Assembly (NCBI GenBank): GCA_021812845.1
Contig: JAKAML010000104.1
Coordinates: 1 to 5,782, forward strand
Reading direction: 5' to 3'
DNA from: Pseudomonadota bacterium
GTDB lineage: Bacteria; Pseudomonadota; Alphaproteobacteria; Rhizobiales; Hyphomicrobiaceae
DNA: 5,782 nucleotides
How positions within the stretch are numbered: the stretch's first letter is position 1; every line of letters begins with the position of its first letter. Below the pieces are notes generated by a model. The model worked only from the letters and a program-made list of their open reading frames with translations, had not been told where the DNA came from and did no database searches. Position numbers and translations under genes: made by a program. Shown piece after piece: positions 268 through 5,782 of this stretch.

Positions 268-299
268 GAGCCCGGCGGCGCGACCTTGCTCAGCTTTTT
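263..299 (+). terminator. Possible Rho-independent terminator between convergent genes
   Basis: GCTGAG (263-268) is exactly complementary to CTCAGC (289-294), and five T residues follow directly at 295-299. The intervening 20 nt (269-288) are GC-rich and could add a short inner pairing (GG 277-278 with CC 284-285). On the plus strand this is a stem followed by a T-tract, as expected for a factor-independent terminator of the methyltransferase gene. The upstream arm holds that gene's stop codon, and the downstream arm holds the complement of the stop codon of the minus-strand fusion gene. On the minus strand no T-run follows the hairpin, so it would not be a typical terminator for the operon. 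The stem is only 6 bp with a long loop, so strength is uncertain. Confidence 0.4.
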
Positions 300-3064
300 C
301 GCGTGCGCAGTCCAATCGCGGCGTCGACCTGCTCGAGCAGGGAGCGCGACCGTGCCGAGACGTCGCCCAGATCGAGCAGCTCCGCGACGCTCCGCGAGGT
401 GGCCACCGGCCGCCGGTTGGCGAACGCCTCGTGGTTGGCCTCGATGCTCGCGAGGTCGTAGAGGTAGTTGACCATGAGGCCGTAAGACTCGCGGACGCCC
501 TTGCGCGACAGGTCGGCCATCCAGTTGATGCGCTCGATGCGCGCGCCGTTGCCGAGATGGAACCGGGCGACGGGATCGCGCGGGCCCTTCTCGGTGCCCG
601 TGCCGGCGACGAGATGCGCGGCAAGCCGCACGAGCACGTCGCTGAGCAGTGTCGCGTCGGCGTAGCCCTCGGCCTCGGCCGTCGCCGCGAGCCGTGCGAT
701 GCCGTCGCGCAGCGACGCCGCCTTCGTCTCCGCGAGCACACGGGCGGCGAGATCGCGCGGCAGATGCCGCTCGAGCGCGGTCGCCGGATCCTCGATCCAG
801 GTCCTCAACGAGGGGATCGGAGAGAGGGTGGAGAAGGTCGTCAACGCCGGCAGCTCGCGGGCGAGGTCGGCCGCGACCTGCTTGATGAGGAAATTGCCGA
901 ACGAGACCCCCTTGAGGCCCGGCTGGCAGTTGGAGATCGAATAGAACACCGCCGTCGAGGCGGTCGCGGCCGCGAGATCGTCGTCGTCGGGATGCGCGGC
1001 GCGGATGATCGGCTCGATCTTCGCCGACAAGCGGTCGACCAGCGCCACCTCGATGAAGATCAGCGGATCGTCGGGCAGCGCAGGGTGGAAGAAGGCGAAG
1101 CAGCGCCGGTCGGAGGCGAGGCGGCGGCGCAGGTCGTCCCAGCCGTCGATGGCGTGCACGGCCTCGTGGGCGATCAGCTTCTCGAGCACGGCGGCGGGCG
1201 TATGCCAGTCGATGCGCCTGAGCTCGAGGAAGCCGCGGTTGAACCACGAGCCGAACAGGTGCCGGAGATCGGCGTCGACCGGCGCCAGGTCGGGGTTGGC
1301 GGCAAGCTGCTCGAGCGCGAAGGTCCGGAGATCGACCAGCGTCGCGGTGCCGTCGGGCCCCATGTTGATGCGGCGGAACAGCTCCTGCCGCGGCGCCTCG
1401 ACGGCGGCGGCGAGGATCGCGAGGCGACGCTCGGAAGGATCCTTGCGCCAGGCTTCGGCAGCGGTGGCGATGCGTTTCGGGTCGGGCGCGTAGCGGGTGG
1501 CGACCATCGTCAGGAACTCGACCAGCTCGCTCGACGAGGCGGAGCGGATCAGCCGCACGAGGTCGTGGGCGATGACCGTGCCCAGCACCTCGCCGCGCTC
1601 CGAGAGCAGGGCGTCGGACAGCGCGCGTGCGCGGTCGATGAATGCCCCTCCGGTGGGAACGCTGTCGATCGGCGCGGAATCGAGGCCGACGGCCCGGCGC
1701 AGGTGCTCGATCCACCTGAGCGCGCTGCGCGACGCCTGCACCGCCGCCGAGGCCGCGGCCGGCAACGCCGCCGCGACCAGCGCCGTCGTCGACTCCTGCG
1801 GCGGCGCGGGGAGGCTCTCCGGGGCGAACTCGCCGAGGATCGCCGCCCGGTTCTGGTCGAGCTTCGGAGCGGGGGCGCGCGTCGCGGGGTCGGCGAAACT
1901 CGAGAGCTTGATCGGATTGCCCGCCATCTGCAGCACGCCGACGTCGGGATCGTCGGCGGTCACGACCATGTTGCGGGCGCGGACGTGCGGATCGGCGAGA
2001 ACCTTGTCGATCGCGTTGATCGGCCCGCAGGGCACGCCGGCCGCGTCAAGCCGCGCGAGCCAGTGATCGACGGTGCCGGCCTTCAAGGCGCGGTTGATCT
2101 CCGCGAACAGAGGCTCCCAGTTCTCGGTACGGAGCGCATTGGTGAGGAATCGCCTGTCCTTGGCGAGCGCGGGTACGCCGAGCGTGTCGCACATCTTCTG
2201 GAACAGGGCGTCGTTGCCGGCGGCGACGACCATCCAGCCGTCCCTGGCCTCGAAGCCGGCGAAGGGCGAGATCGAGGGGTGGCGGGCGCCGATGGGCCCG
2301 GCCACCTCGCCGGTCGCGGCATAGCGGGAGATCGCGTTCTCGAGGATCGCCACCTGGCAATCGAGCATCGCCACGTCGACCTTGATCGCGGCTCCGGTGA
2401 CGGCGCGATGCAGGAGCGCGGCATTGACGCCGATGGCGGTGAAGAGCCCGGCGGTGATGTCGCCGATGGAGGTGCCGACGCGCACCGGCGGCTGGCCGGG
2501 ATGGCCGGTGATCGACATGATGCCGCCCATGGCCTGAACGACCATGTCGTAGGCGGCGCGCCTGGAATAGGGCCCCGAGTGGCCGAAGCCCGACGCCGCC
2601 GCGTAGATCAGGCGCGGGTGGCGCTGGTGCAGCGTCTCCCAGCCGTAGCCCAGCTTCTCCATCGTGCCGGGCCGGAAGTTCTCGACCACCACGTCGGCGT
2701 TGGCGAGCAGCGCGTCGAAAATCGCGCGGTCCGCCGCCGTCTTGAGGTCGAGCGCGATCGACTGCTTGCCGCGATTGAGCGAGGCGAAATAGGCCGAGGC
2801 GCCGTTGACGAACGGGCCGTAGGCGCGGCTGTCGTCGCCGGTGCCGGGCTGCTCGACCTTGATGACGCGGGCGCCAAGGTCGGCCAGCACCATGGTGCAG
2901 TAGGGCCCGGCGAGCACGCGCGTCAGGTCGATGACAACGACGCCGGCAAGCGGACCCGCCATCGTCGCCGGCGGCACGGGATGCGGGCCCGGCGCCGCCA
3001 CGGCGGCGGGGCCGCCGGGCGCCGTTGCGGTCGAGGGCACTGGGGAGGCGATCTTCGCGGTCAT
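290..3064 (-). CDS. Fusion enzyme: family III CoA-transferase + malonyl-CoA decarboxylase
   Basis: This 924-residue protein carries two complete enzymes. Residues ~36-410 are a CaiB/BaiF (family III) CoA-transferase: GPLAGVVVIDLTRVLAGPY, ADLGARVIKVEQP, SLNRGKQSIALDL, VVVENFRPGTMEKLGYGW, and PPVRVGTSIGDITAG near 192-206. The expected catalytic Asp is D173 in RRAAYDMVVQAMGG (codon 2546-2548). Residues ~448-924 are malonyl-CoA decarboxylase: FNRGFLELRRIDW, HPALPDDPLIFIEVALV (660-676), FYSISNCQPGLKGVSFGNFL (707-726), TFSTLSPIPSL (743-753), RFHLGNGARIERINWMADLS (834-853) and GLMVNYLYDL. The decarboxylase serine is probably S711 or S709 and the histidine H836 (codon 557-559), matching the Ser/His pair known in the human enzyme. 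Predicted cytoplasmic; no signal peptide or membrane segment. It follows dctM by 22 nt and ends the operon. Proposed role (inference): CoA transfer to malonate, then decarboxylation to acetyl-CoA. The first 34 residues are Ala/Pro-rich; M35 is an alternative start, but M1 is preferred for a GGGA 7 nt upstream and its closeness to dctM. The CoA donor and acceptor are not proven by sequence. Confidence 0.93.
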   Translation of the reverse strand: MTAKIASPVPSTATAPGGPAAVAAPGPHPVPPATMAGPLAGVVVIDLTRVLAGPYCTMVLADLGARVIKVEQPGTGDDSRAYGPFVNGASAYFASLNRGKQSIALDLKTAADRAIFDALLANADVVVENFRPGTMEKLGYGWETLHQRHPRLIYAAASGFGHSGPYSRRAAYDMVVQAMGGIMSITGHPGQPPVRVGTSIGDITAGLFTAIGVNAALLHRAVTGAAIKVDVAMLDCQVAILENAISRYAATGEVAGPIGARHPSISPFAGFEARDGWMVVAAGNDALFQKMCDTLGVPALAKDRRFLTNALRTENWEPLFAEINRALKAGTVDHWLARLDAAGVPCGPINAIDKVLADPHVRARNMVVTADDPDVGVLQMAGNPIKLSSFADPATRAPAPKLDQNRAAILGEFAPESLPAPPQESTTALVAAALPAAASAAVQASRSALRWIEHLRRAVGLDSAPIDSVPTGGAFIDRARALSDALLSERGEVLGTVIAHDLVRLIRSASSSELVEFLTMVATRYAPDPKRIATAAEAWRKDPSERRLAILAAAVEAPRQELFRRINMGPDGTATLVDLRTFALEQLAANPDLAPVDADLRHLFGSWFNRGFLELRRIDWHTPAAVLEKLIAHEAVHAIDGWDDLRRRLASDRRCFAFFHPALPDDPLIFIEVALVDRLSAKIEPIIRAAHPDDDDLAAATASTAVFYSISNCQPGLKGVSFGNFLIKQVAADLARELPALTTFSTLSPIPSLRTWIEDPATALERHLPRDLAARVLAETKAASLRDGIARLAATAEAEGYADATLLSDVLVRLAAHLVAGTGTEKGPRDPVARFHLGNGARIERINWMADLSRKGVRESYGLMVNYLYDLASIEANHEAFANRRPVATSRSVAELLDLGDVSARSRSLLEQVDAAIGLRTRKS
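1724..1825 (-). other. Ala/Pro-rich interdomain linker of the fusion enzyme
   Basis: Residues ~414-447 of the fusion protein (PESLPAPPQESTTALVAAAL, then a long Ala run) have low complexity and match neither flanking enzyme family. They separate the last CoA-transferase segment (GNPIKLSSF...KLDQNRAAILGEF) from the first helices of the decarboxylase (ALRWIEHLRRAVG). The reading frame is open throughout, with no stop or frameshift, so the two enzymes are made as one chain. A CAGGAG sequence lies here (1793-1798 on the minus strand), but no ATG, GTG or TTG stands at a suitable distance, so independent initiation of the decarboxylase is not supported. Confidence 0.8.
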
Positions 3065-3086: not shown

Positions 3087-4403
3087 CTACTTGATCGGAC
3101 CCATGACGTAATTCGGCAGCCAGGTCGCGATCTCGGGGAAGATACAGAGGATCACGATACCGAGCATCATCACGAGGACGTAGGGGAGCGAGCCCCACAG
3201 CACCTCGCGCGTCGGAACGTCGGGAGCGATCGCGTTGATGACGAAGAGGTTCAGCCCGACGGGCGGCGTGATGAGCCCGATTTCCATGTTGATCGTGAGG
3301 ATCACCGCGAACCAGTAGGGGTCGAAGCCCGCCTGGGTGATGATCGGGAACAGCAGCGGCGCCGACATGACGATGATCGCGACCGGCGGCAGGAACATGC
3401 CCGACACGAGCAGGAACACGTTGACGATCGCCAGCAGCACCCACTTGTTGACGCCGAGCCCGGCGATCGACTGCGCCACGGTCTGGGTGATGAACAGCGA
3501 GGAGAGCGCGAAGGCGAACAGCTCCGCGGCGGCCATGATCATCATGATCATGACGCTTTCCTTCATCGTCGACTGGAAGATGCCGAGATGTGGCTTCAGC
3601 GTGAACAGCCGATAGATGAGCGTCACCGTCAGGAGCGTGATCAGCGCGCCCGCACCCGCGGCCTCCGACGGCGTCGCGATGCCGCCGTAGAGCACGTAGA
3701 GCGTCCCGACGATGATGATGATGAAGGGAGCCACGCGCGGCAGGGCGGCGAACTTCTCGGCGAGCGAGTAGCGTTTGCCCATGTCGTCGAAGCGGTAGCC
3801 CTTGCGCCAGCAGTCGTAGAGCGCCCAGGCCATGAACATCGCCGTCAGCATCAGGCCCGGCATGACGCCGGCGAGGAACAGGCGCCCGATCGAGGACTCC
3901 GTCGCGATGCCGTAGACGATCATGGTGACCGACGGCGGGATCAGGATACCGAGCGTGCCGCCGGCGCAGATCGAGCCGGTGGCGACCGAGGCCGGATAGC
4001 CGCGCTTCAGCATCTCGGGGATGCCCATCTTGCCGATCGCGGCGCAGGTGGCGGGCGAGGAGCCGGTCATGCCGGCGAACACGGCGCAGGCGCCGATGTT
4101 GGAGAGGACGAGACCGCCCGGTACGCGGCCGAGCCAGCGGTCGAGCGCCGAGTAGAGGTCGCGGCCGGCGGGCGTGGCGGCGACGGCGGCGCCCATCAGC
4201 ACGAACATCGGGATCGAGACGTAGGCGAGATTGGCGATGCCGCCGAAGATGGTCTCAGCAAGGACATCGGTGACCCCCGGCCCCTTGGCGAGAAGCAGCC
4301 CGCCGAGCGCCGCCAGACCCAGCGCGAAGGCGATCGGCATTCCGCTCGCCAGCAGGGCCAGGAGCCCGAGCATCAGCAGCGTGCCCGACAAGACCGGTGT
4401 CAT
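3087..4403 (-). CDS. dctM: TRAP transporter large membrane subunit (DctM family)
   Basis: This 438-residue, very hydrophobic protein is the ion-coupled transport subunit of a tripartite ATP-independent periplasmic transporter. With DctQ it forms the inner-membrane complex that receives substrate from the periplasmic binding protein and moves it with Na+ or H+. Family marks include TGSSPATCAAIGKMGIPEML (113-132), ATGSICAGGTLGILIPPSVT (141-160), YGIATESSIGRLFLAGVMPG (164-183), GIATPSEAAGAGAL (241-254) and EIGLITPPVGLNLFVINAIA (374-393). Length matches the usual ~425-440 residues. An upstream in-frame ATG at 4508 lies inside dctQ and would add a non-hydrophobic extension. The ATG at 4401-4403 is chosen because a strong GAGGGGAG lies 6 nt upstream and the first membrane segment (LSGTLLMLGLLALLASGMPI) begins at once. 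The start overlaps the dctQ stop by 4 nt (ATGA), the usual sign of coupled translation. Malonate as substrate is inferred from the downstream enzyme. Confidence 0.96.
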   Translation of the reverse strand: MTPVLSGTLLMLGLLALLASGMPIAFALGLAALGGLLLAKGPGVTDVLAETIFGGIANLAYVSIPMFVLMGAAVAATPAGRDLYSALDRWLGRVPGGLVLSNIGACAVFAGMTGSSPATCAAIGKMGIPEMLKRGYPASVATGSICAGGTLGILIPPSVTMIVYGIATESSIGRLFLAGVMPGLMLTAMFMAWALYDCWRKGYRFDDMGKRYSLAEKFAALPRVAPFIIIIVGTLYVLYGGIATPSEAAGAGALITLLTVTLIYRLFTLKPHLGIFQSTMKESVMIMMIMAAAELFAFALSSLFITQTVAQSIAGLGVNKWVLLAIVNVFLLVSGMFLPPVAIIVMSAPLLFPIITQAGFDPYWFAVILTINMEIGLITPPVGLNLFVINAIAPDVPTREVLWGSLPYVLVMMLGIVILCIFPEIATWLPNYVMGPIK

Positions 4404-5023
4404 CGTCGGCTCCCCTCGTACTTGATGAATTCGGCGACGTACTGGAGACAGAGCAGGCCGAAGCCCAGGGGCAGCGGCAAGGTCGGGATCCAGAGCGGGA
4501 TCGCCCACACGGTCTCCGTGCGCCAGCCTTCGGTCAACGCTTCGTGGAAGTAGTGCCAGCTCGCATAGGCCATGATCGCGCAGAACAGGAAGCCGGCGAT
4601 CATGCCGAAGCGGTCGACGGCGCGACGCACCCCGCCGCGCAATTGCGACTGGATGAAGTCGACGCCGACGTGCCCCTTCTGCGAGAGCACGTAGGCGGCG
4701 CCGAGGAAGATCGACGCGGTGGCGGAATAGACCACGAAGTCGGTCTGCCAGATCGTCGACCAGCCGAGCACCGCGCGTACGAAGATCATCTGACAGACGA
4801 CGACGGCGGCGGCGACCAGAAGCAGCGCGGACACTACGCCGAATGCTGTGGTGAGGGCCTCGATCGCGCGGACCAGCGGATGCCGGGTCGCGGTCCTGAT
4901 CTCGGGCGTGACGCCTTCGATGTCGACACCCGCATTCGCGAGCGCCTCGATCACGGCGGCGTCCGGGGCGGGCTTGGTCGCGCCCGCCCCGTCTTGGCTG
5001 GCCGTGGGATCGCCCTGGCCCAT
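4400..5023 (-). CDS. dctQ: TRAP transporter small membrane subunit (DctQ family), N-terminally extended
   Basis: This 207-residue protein has four predicted membrane segments (about 57-80, 93-114, 137-157 and 174-198), the DctQ topology. The family loop motif appears as LSQKGHVGVDFIQSQL (113-128), preceded by an amphipathic WSTIWQTDFVVYSATASIFLGAAY stretch. DctQ is the required partner of DctM in the inner membrane. At 207 residues it is longer than the usual ~160-190: about 50 hydrophilic residues precede the first membrane segment, with a Gly/Ala/Pro-rich, then mildly acidic section (DAAVIEALANAGVDIEGVTPEI). The ATG at 5021-5023 lies 2 nt after the dctP stop and is the only ATG before the membrane core (the next Met is residue 79). 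No good Shine-Dalgarno sequence is visible, so translation probably depends on ribosomes finishing dctP. Its stop overlaps the dctM start. Confidence 0.93.
   Translation of the reverse strand: MGQGDPTASQDGAGATKPAPDAAVIEALANAGVDIEGVTPEIRTATRHPLVRAIEALTTAFGVVSALLLVAAAVVVCQMIFVRAVLGWSTIWQTDFVVYSATASIFLGAAYVLSQKGHVGVDFIQSQLRGGVRRAVDRFGMIAGFLFCAIMAYASWHYFHEALTEGWRTETVWAIPLWIPTLPLPLGFGLLCLQYVAEFIKYEGSRR
4410..4417 (-). promoter_or_regulatory. Strong ribosome binding site of dctM
   Basis: GAGGGGAG on the minus strand, 6 nt before the ATG at 4401-4403 and inside the last codons of dctQ. It is the best Shine-Dalgarno match in the operon and fixes the dctM start against the longer open frame. Confidence 0.8.
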
Positions 5024-5025
5024 GG

Positions 5026-5782
5026 CTACTTGACGGCGAGCGCCTTCTTGATCAGCTCGTCGCCGCCCTTCACGTCCTCGTTGAACTTCTTGTAGGCGGA
5101 GCCTTCGGCGACCTTGAGCCAGGCGTCATAGTCGGCCTTCGACATCTCGACGACCTTGACGCCGGCCTTCTTGAACGCCTCGATCATCTTGTCGTCACCC
5201 TTCTTCGCTTCCGCGAGAAAGTAGGTCTCGGCCTTCTTGCCGGCGTCGAGGATCGCCTTCTTCTGTGCGTCGTTCAACTTGTCGAACACCTGCTTCGACA
5301 TCAGCAGCGGCTCGTACATGTACCAGAGCGCGTTCTCGCCGGGCGCGGTCAGGCACTTGACCTGTTCGAACAGCCGGTAGGAGACGAAGCTCTCCGACGA
5401 GGTGTTGGTGGCGTCGAGCGCGCCGGACTGCATGGCGGTGTAGATCTCCGACGACGGCATCGAGCTGATCGACGCGCCGGCCGCGGCCAGCATCTGCTCG
5501 AAGGCCGGGCCGGCGGCGCGGATGACCTGGCCCTTGACGGTGTCAGGCGAGGTGATGCAGCCCTTCTTGGAGGCGAACGCGCCCGACAGCCAGCTGTCGG
5601 CGATGACGATCGCGCCGGCACCTTCGATGATCTTCTTCACGTCGGCCATGAACGGCGAGCTGTTGAGGCGCATGGCGCGGTCGTGATTGCCGACGAGGCC
5701 GGGCATCAGCGTCGCCGAGAACTGCGGGTGGCGGCCGGCGGCGTAGTCGAGCGGGAACAGGGCGAAGTCGAGCTGGCCCTTG
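5026..5782 (-). CDS. dctP: TRAP transporter periplasmic substrate-binding protein (DctP family), 5' partial
   Basis: The frame is open from the right edge to a TAG at 5026-5028, giving the C-terminal 251 residues. The signal peptide and roughly 80-100 N-terminal residues are outside the window. The fragment starts at KGQLDFALFPLDYAAGRHPQ, the region where DctP proteins say that the substrate cleft is present, and it continues through the internal Met at 5704-5706, which is not a start. It carries TVKGQVIRAAGPAFEQML (81-98 of the fragment), whose Arg (R88) corresponds to the carboxylate-binding arginine of DctP proteins, then SSMPSSEIYTAMQSGALDAT (106-125), the family signature. The Lys/Glu-rich helical C-terminus (LNDAQKKAILDAGKKAETYF, EAFKKAGVKVVEMS) is also typical. 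It captures a carboxylate in the periplasm and delivers it to DctQM. Cysteines 75 and 143 of the fragment could form a disulfide. It is upstream of dctQ with a 2-nt gap, so it is probably the first gene of the transporter. Substrate identity is inferred from the downstream enzyme. Confidence 0.94.
   Translation of the reverse strand, partial: KGQLDFALFPLDYAAGRHPQFSATLMPGLVGNHDRAMRLNSSPFMADVKKIIEGAGAIVIADSWLSGAFASKKGCITSPDTVKGQVIRAAGPAFEQMLAAAGASISSMPSSEIYTAMQSGALDATNTSSESFVSYRLFEQVKCLTAPGENALWYMYEPLLMSKQVFDKLNDAQKKAILDAGKKAETYFLAEAKKGDDKMIEAFKKAGVKVVEMSKADYDAWLKVAEGSAYKKFNEDVKGGDELIKKALAVK

Follow-up and report, generated by a model that had tools for sequence, protein, structure and literature searches.

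A fused class III CoA-transferase and malonyl-CoA decarboxylase as a predicted one-chain malonate decarboxylase of Alphaproteobacteria

A 5,782-nucleotide stretch of alphaproteobacterial DNA (contig JAKAML010000104.1; referred to below as the window) carries on its minus strand a gene in which a class III coenzyme A (CoA) transferase and a malonyl-CoA decarboxylase (MCD) are joined in one reading frame. The encoded protein is predicted to turn malonate into acetate and CO2, recycling CoA and spending no ATP on activation. It would do so without the usual ATP-using enzyme, as an independent path of malonate utilisation that draws on another enzyme family, and this function is considered likely. 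That malonate is the acceptor of the transferase half is very probable on account of the fusion itself, the conserved active-site residues, the adjoining genes of a tripartite ATP-independent periplasmic (TRAP) transporter, and the near exclusion, among MCD-bearing genomes, between this transferase and the malonyl-CoA-forming enzyme MatB. Acetyl-CoA is the favoured, if less assured, CoA donor by homology to YfdE and UctC and because the MCD half regenerates acetyl-CoA. In the broadest form of this interpretation, to which we assign a probability of roughly 0.55, the class III subfamily would act as malonate CoA-transferase across much of the Alphaproteobacteria and would have been swapped with MatB while the neighbouring importer and decarboxylase stayed the same. 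In the lineage of the window, transferase and decarboxylase would have merged into a malonate decarboxylase of one chain, with CoA instead of an acyl-carrier protein as the catalytic carrier that shuttles between both active sites.

The open reading frame starts with ATG and encodes 924 amino acids without internal stop. Pfam matches cover both halves: CoA_transf_3 at residues 39-405 (E 3.1e-130, 435 bits, profile positions 1-365 of 366), MCD_N at residues 525-608 (E 1.1e-24, profile complete, 1-85 of 85) and MCD at residues 611-870 (E 3.3e-96, profile complete, 1-253 of 253). The gene and its elements are as follows.

290..3064, minus strand: fused gene, CoA-transferase plus MCD, 924 amino acids (reading frame and Pfam)
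1850..2950, minus strand: class III CoA-transferase domain, residues 39-405 (Pfam)
2546..2548, minus strand: Asp173, predicted covalent catalytic residue (alignment with Asp173 of YfdE)
2279..2290, minus strand: GARH loop, residues 259-262, counterpart of the GNxH specificity loop of YfdE (alignment; PMC3720670)
1670..1822, minus strand: linker joining the halves, about residues 415-465 (predicted local distance difference test score, pLDDT, <50; length varies among fusions)
1241..1492, minus strand: MCD N-terminal domain, residues 525-608 (Pfam PF17408)
455..1234, minus strand: MCD C-terminal catalytic domain, residues 611-870 (Pfam PF05292)
932..940, minus strand: Ser709 and Ser711 in a YSIS motif (aligned to solved MCDs; unchanged in all 43 aligned fusions)
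557..559, minus strand: His836 in an FHLGNG motif (aligned to solved MCDs; unchanged in all 43 aligned fusions)

An earlier reading made from the sequence only had proposed an in-frame fusion; the reading frame, the Pfam domains and the presence of the fusion in all four genomes of the genus that were examined show it to be real. In a protein search, the transferase together with both MCD domains was found in 76 of 120 listed clusters (out of 590 passing the E-value), and the transferase with MCD_N only in three more. An assembly artefact or a chance fusion was ruled out by the four genus genomes and these 76 clusters, five of which lie on contigs longer than 1 Mb. The names given by the sources to the fused proteins of the listed clusters are mostly CoA:oxalate CoA-transferase.

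Asp173, Ser709, Ser711 and His836 sit exactly where the sequence-only reading had placed them, and their assignment as key residues was borne out by alignment to YfdE and to solved MCDs. In the alignment with YfdE, Asp173 matches the YDxxxQAM motif of that enzyme. Ser709 and Ser711 are part of an FYSIS motif and His836 of FHLxNGA; these two motifs align with all five solved MCD sequences found. Their Ser and His are catalytic according to the MCD literature. According to the YfdE study (PMC3720670), a catalytic Asp carries out the class III CoA-transferase reaction, and Asp173 of YfdE is the covalent site, forming the active site with His233 of the partner subunit. The fused enzyme retains both YfdE site residues, the Asp and the loop His, and has the loop Asn replaced by Ala. 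Among the 76 fused clusters listed, Asp173 is retained in 71 (four gaps, one Gly), Ser709 and Ser711 in 75 (one gap) and His836 in 73 (three gaps). The alignment of the loop together with these residues took in 43 of the 76 fused proteins; the GARH sequence is exact in 36 of them, the loop His is present in 40 and Asp173 in 42. As a marker of MCD-linked transferases the GARH loop was ruled out: occurring in 88 of 108 distinct loci and in 64 of 72 fused proteins, it is common throughout the subfamily and cannot tell MCD-linked members from the rest. Both domains were modelled in the predicted structure of the fusion, with a predicted template modelling score of 0.44, at which their mutual placement is unreliable; the active-site loops 170-183 and 252-265 are at pLDDT <50, and the MCD matches among solved structures have root-mean-square deviations of 12-15.

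In a tree of 221 transferase domains, 74 fused leaves fall into one clade with a support of 1.0, whose only standalone member is L086 (genome G167). Cluster P0073 has the reverse order, MCD (37-438) followed by the transferase (458-837), and groups with the standalone transferases L116 and L130 (support 0.99); judged by domain order and grouping, its fusion is a separate event. Cluster P0074 branches outside the main fusion clade and is a probable third fusion event. The same two families were thus fused repeatedly and in both orders, which is classic evidence of one shared pathway.

The relation between the transferase and MatB was determined in a class sample of 385 genomes, which were searched separately for MCD, for the transferase (E <= 1e-120) and for MatB (NCBIfam PRK07514, which we take to be a malonyl-CoA synthase model). 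MCD was present in 140, the transferase in 102 and MatB in 106 genomes. The 140 MCD genomes comprise seven with transferase and MatB, 51 with the transferase only, 61 with MatB only and 21 with neither (Fisher p 8e-14; the contingency lists were transferred by hand into scripts). The corresponding numbers for the 245 MCD-free genomes are 5, 39, 33 and 168, so that transferase and MatB occur independently there (p 0.5). These p-values are inflated because the genomes are related; with 67 families each reduced to the majority state p was 4e-4, and with one genome per family in 500 draws the median p was 8e-6 and the worst 3e-4. Exclusion persisted over transferase thresholds of 400-550 bits (p 8e-14 to 2.5e-6). 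This census is the fair test, and a set of MatB controls is secondary to it: MatB exceeded its cut-off in eight of eight MCD-positive, transferase-negative genomes, which were hand-picked and not random. Where the transferase is fused or linked to MCD, MatB did so in two of 15 genomes, G500 and G771. No MatB over the NF005702 cut-off was found in the fusion genomes G000 (the window's own, 54% complete), G344 (98%), G391 (98%) and G777 (76%).

Transferase and MCD are also neighbours as separate genes. They form tandems in L132, L133 and L134 (family f91; gap of 74 bp in L132 and 66 bp in L133) and in L008 from a metagenome-assembled genome of the Sphingomonadales, and are divergent neighbours in two f156 genomes (G500, G771; L135, L136). 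Including the window's genome, the two lie close together on one contig in eight of 58 genomes carrying both, as read by eye. In two 1.2-Mb f149 genomes (L137, L138) the transferase is divergent from a DctP-DctQ-DctM-MCD operon. The locus L182 matches the order of L138, apart from the regulator, with the genes for MatB and a GntR-FCD regulator placed divergently to DctP-DctQ-DctM-MCD, so that MatB occupies the transferase's side of the operon. This suggests that the activating enzyme was exchanged while importer and decarboxylase were kept. Because MatB makes malonyl-CoA from malonate, the exchange points to malonate as acceptor of the transferase without recourse to its likeness to YfdE. The earlier proposal that the transferase supplies malonyl-CoA to MCD is thus supported by the MatB exclusion, the operon slot, the tandem and divergent gene pairs and the reverse-order fusion. 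The proposed replacement of MatB likewise finds support in the exclusion among MCD genomes and in the same place beside the transporter operon.

In the window, the fusion gene comes after a set of DctP, DctQ and DctM genes that are all present at 3087-5781.

3087..4403, minus strand: TRAP large permease DctM (Pfam PF06808, E 1.7e-93)
4400..5023, minus strand: TRAP small permease DctQ (Pfam PF04290)
5026..5781, minus strand: TRAP solute-binding protein DctP, N-terminus lost at the contig end (Pfam PF03480)

The DctM frame is open to 4508; the ATG at 4403, which overlaps the DctQ stop, is the likely start. The closest relative of DctP in the PDB is 4mco/4mev (182.4 bits; next relative 55.6 bits). 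These entries are presumably Rfer_1840 of Rhodoferax ferrireducens with malonate bound. A single-sequence model of DctP (pLDDT 36.8) was unusable for reading the ligand. Close DctP proteins (E <= 1e-60) were found in 33 of the 385 class-sample genomes, and in 14 of the 33 they are encoded within 8 kb of MatB (10), MCD (9) or the transferase (4). MatB and transferase together within 8 kb of a close DctP were found in none of the 33 genomes (places were transferred by hand into the script). A standalone transferase stands beside the importer in L006 and L017, where DctP is 64-68% identical to that of the window. Both genomes encode MCD elsewhere, and MCD was present in seven of seven distinct genomes of that check (10 rows, three evidently duplicates of the same genomes). 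In the sister genomes G344, G391 and G777 a divergent tripartite importer with a GntR-FCD regulator lies beside the fusion, of the TctCBA type and not TRAP. Pfam matches identify TctC, TctB, TctA and GntR-FCD in L088 (5285-9378) and GntR-FCD in L089; the other importer genes of L089 and those of L004 were assigned by matching gene order and sequence starts. The GntR-FCD regulators of L088 and of the MatB locus L182 are 42% identical.

Two side observations concern these loci. All four tandem pairs have a flavin-reductase-like gene at a distance of no more than a few kb (L132 5124-5777, L133 12853-13506, L134 11096-11743, L008 5025-5678), and another one adjoins the transferase of L006. Positions 1-267 of the window (plus strand) hold the C-terminal 88 amino acids of a convergent open frame without Pfam match.

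Several observations weigh against the proposed function. Seven MCD genomes carry both the transferase and MatB (G440, G488, G500, G591, G683, G771, G775); in two of these, G500 and G771, the transferase adjoins MCD but the close DctP stands beside MatB. Neither enzyme was over the cut-off in 21 of the 140 MCD genomes, which suggests that these genomes obtain malonyl-CoA in a third way or use MCD for something else. Conversely, 44 of the 102 transferase genomes are without MCD; the subfamily may be broader than malonate, or malonyl-CoA may be used directly in these MCD-free genomes. With the transferase threshold set at 500 or 520 bits, MCD-free genomes showed avoidance as well, though less strongly (p 0.018 and 0.051), and part of the exclusion may be due to lineage. 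Given the incompleteness of the window's own genome, its MatB absence is weak evidence. In L181 (5533-9659; G601) transferase and importer are present, the next genes are similar and MCD is missing from the place it has in L137 and L138; malonyl-CoA may feed biosynthesis in this genome. Among the fused proteins, P0068 and P0069 have lost the loop His, and P0072 the loop His and, by exchange to Gly, the Asp, with the MCD residues intact in all three; their transferase halves are, by these residues, probably dead or altered. In P0080-P0120 the transferase subfamily has other fusion partners, namely GNAT, pyridoxal-phosphate-dependent (PF00291), inositol-monophosphatase-like (PF00459), aminotransferase (PF00155) and aldehyde-dehydrogenase (PF00171) domains. 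The GNAT fusion is of interest because the catalytic domain of MCD has a GNAT-like fold.

In the proposed mechanism malonate would enter via DctPQM, or via TctCBA in the sister genomes. The transferase half would then convert malonate and acetyl-CoA to malonyl-CoA and acetate, with Asp173 forming acyl-anhydride and aspartyl-CoA intermediates and the loop His262 of the partner subunit holding the carboxylate. Malonyl-CoA would reach the MCD site (Ser709/711, His836) and be cleaved to acetyl-CoA and CO2, the irreversible loss of CO2 driving the near-neutral transfer forward, and acetate would be assimilated via acetyl-CoA synthetase. The ATP independence claimed in the sequence-only reading would hold for the decarboxylation but not overall, as assimilation of acetate requires its ATP-dependent re-activation. 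If acetyl-CoA is the donor, the gain would thus be fast removal of malonate by one protein rather than energy.

Both acetyl-CoA and succinyl-CoA as donors fit the genomics. With acetyl-CoA the half-reactions would close and CoA would be catalytic. A possible, though rather doubtful, alternative is that malonate receives CoA from succinyl-CoA or another CoA ester of the cell, yielding acetyl-CoA, succinate and CO2 and hence a link to the citric acid cycle instead of a closed cycle. Class III relatives that use succinyl-CoA, human SUGCT (9br6, 9br7) and BbsEF (9fol, 9fn0), are among the ten best solved matches, the NCBIfam models for succinate--glutarate and succinyl-CoA:mesaconate transferases match below cut-off, and acetyl-CoA would be obtained directly. 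Yet among solved transferases YfdE comes closest (365 bits, 44% identity), and with it neither succinyl-CoA plus oxalate nor acetyl-CoA plus succinate gave a product (PMC3720670). Fusion to an enzyme that produces acetyl-CoA would also favour acetyl-CoA as donor.

It is unlikely that oxalate or some other acid is what the transferase activates, using acetyl-CoA made by the MCD half from cellular malonyl-CoA, with malonate not being the substrate. Such a role is in line with the nearest characterised relatives, which are acetyl-CoA:oxalate transferases, with the 44 transferase genomes without MCD and with the fusions of the subfamily to other domains. However, it leaves unexplained both the exclusion of MatB among MCD genomes and the common place beside the same importer, and malonyl-CoA spent on activation would cost ATP. 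In addition, the loop reads GARH and not GNxH, and the fused enzyme scores 406.8 bits against the CoA:oxalate equivalog NF008511 of NCBIfam, whose cut-off of 522 bits is not reached. A substituted malonate such as methylmalonate as acceptor, with its CoA ester decarboxylated by the MCD half, is very improbable in view of the MatB operons, which have the same importer lineage and MCD and a synthetase that matches PRK07514.

Malonate is widespread as an acid of plants and soils and is well known as an inhibitor of respiration. Among the MCD genomes of the class sample, those with the transferase and without MatB (51) are nearly as many as those with the opposite combination (61), and if malonate is the acceptor, its route is mis-annotated in many bacteria. 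The chemistry is known in outline: the predicted reaction of the transferase half is that of malonate CoA-transferase (Enzyme Commission number, EC, 2.8.3.3), and that of the MCD half, with complete domains and both Ser and His motifs, is EC 4.1.1.9. The sequence solution looks new. Neither the fusion, nor a class III malonate transferase, nor the exchange with MatB was found described in the open-access papers searched, most subscription journals being outside this scope, and no class III sequence tied to malonate CoA-transferase activity was found there. A review (PMC8307300) states that EC 2.8.3.3 has no KEGG function number and refers to a 1981 report on a malonate decarboxylase of Pseudomonas ovalis that is bifunctional. 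The present prediction, if true, would assign sequences to this activity without a KEGG number and make available a single soluble chain for ATP-free malonate decarboxylation.

Three known systems invite comparison. YfdE of E. coli and UctC of Acetobacter, both class III, make oxalyl-CoA from acetyl-CoA and gave no product with succinyl-CoA, according to the YfdE paper (PMC3720670), which does not mention malonate. The fused enzyme keeps the His but not the Asn of the YfdE GNxH loop and is coupled to MCD, not to oxalyl-CoA decarboxylase. An Mdc-type decarboxylase as such was ruled out: full-length MdcA was found in none of 15 genomes tested, and the four fusion genomes among them contain only MdcA fragments of about 75 of 546 positions, which are over the family cut-off and are also matched in the E. 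coli control. Isolated MdcA subunits reportedly show malonate CoA-transferase activity. MdcACDE shares the overall logic, in which an acetyl thioester is exchanged for a malonyl thioester that is decarboxylated to regenerate the acetyl form. MdcACDE uses an acyl-carrier protein (PMC5534430), whereas CoA would be the carrier in the fused enzyme. The MatA/MatB pathway with its TRAP importer shares the MCD family and the importer lineage with the transferase operons. Its ATP-dependent synthetase MatB would be replaced by the CoA-transferase, which in the window is fused to MCD.

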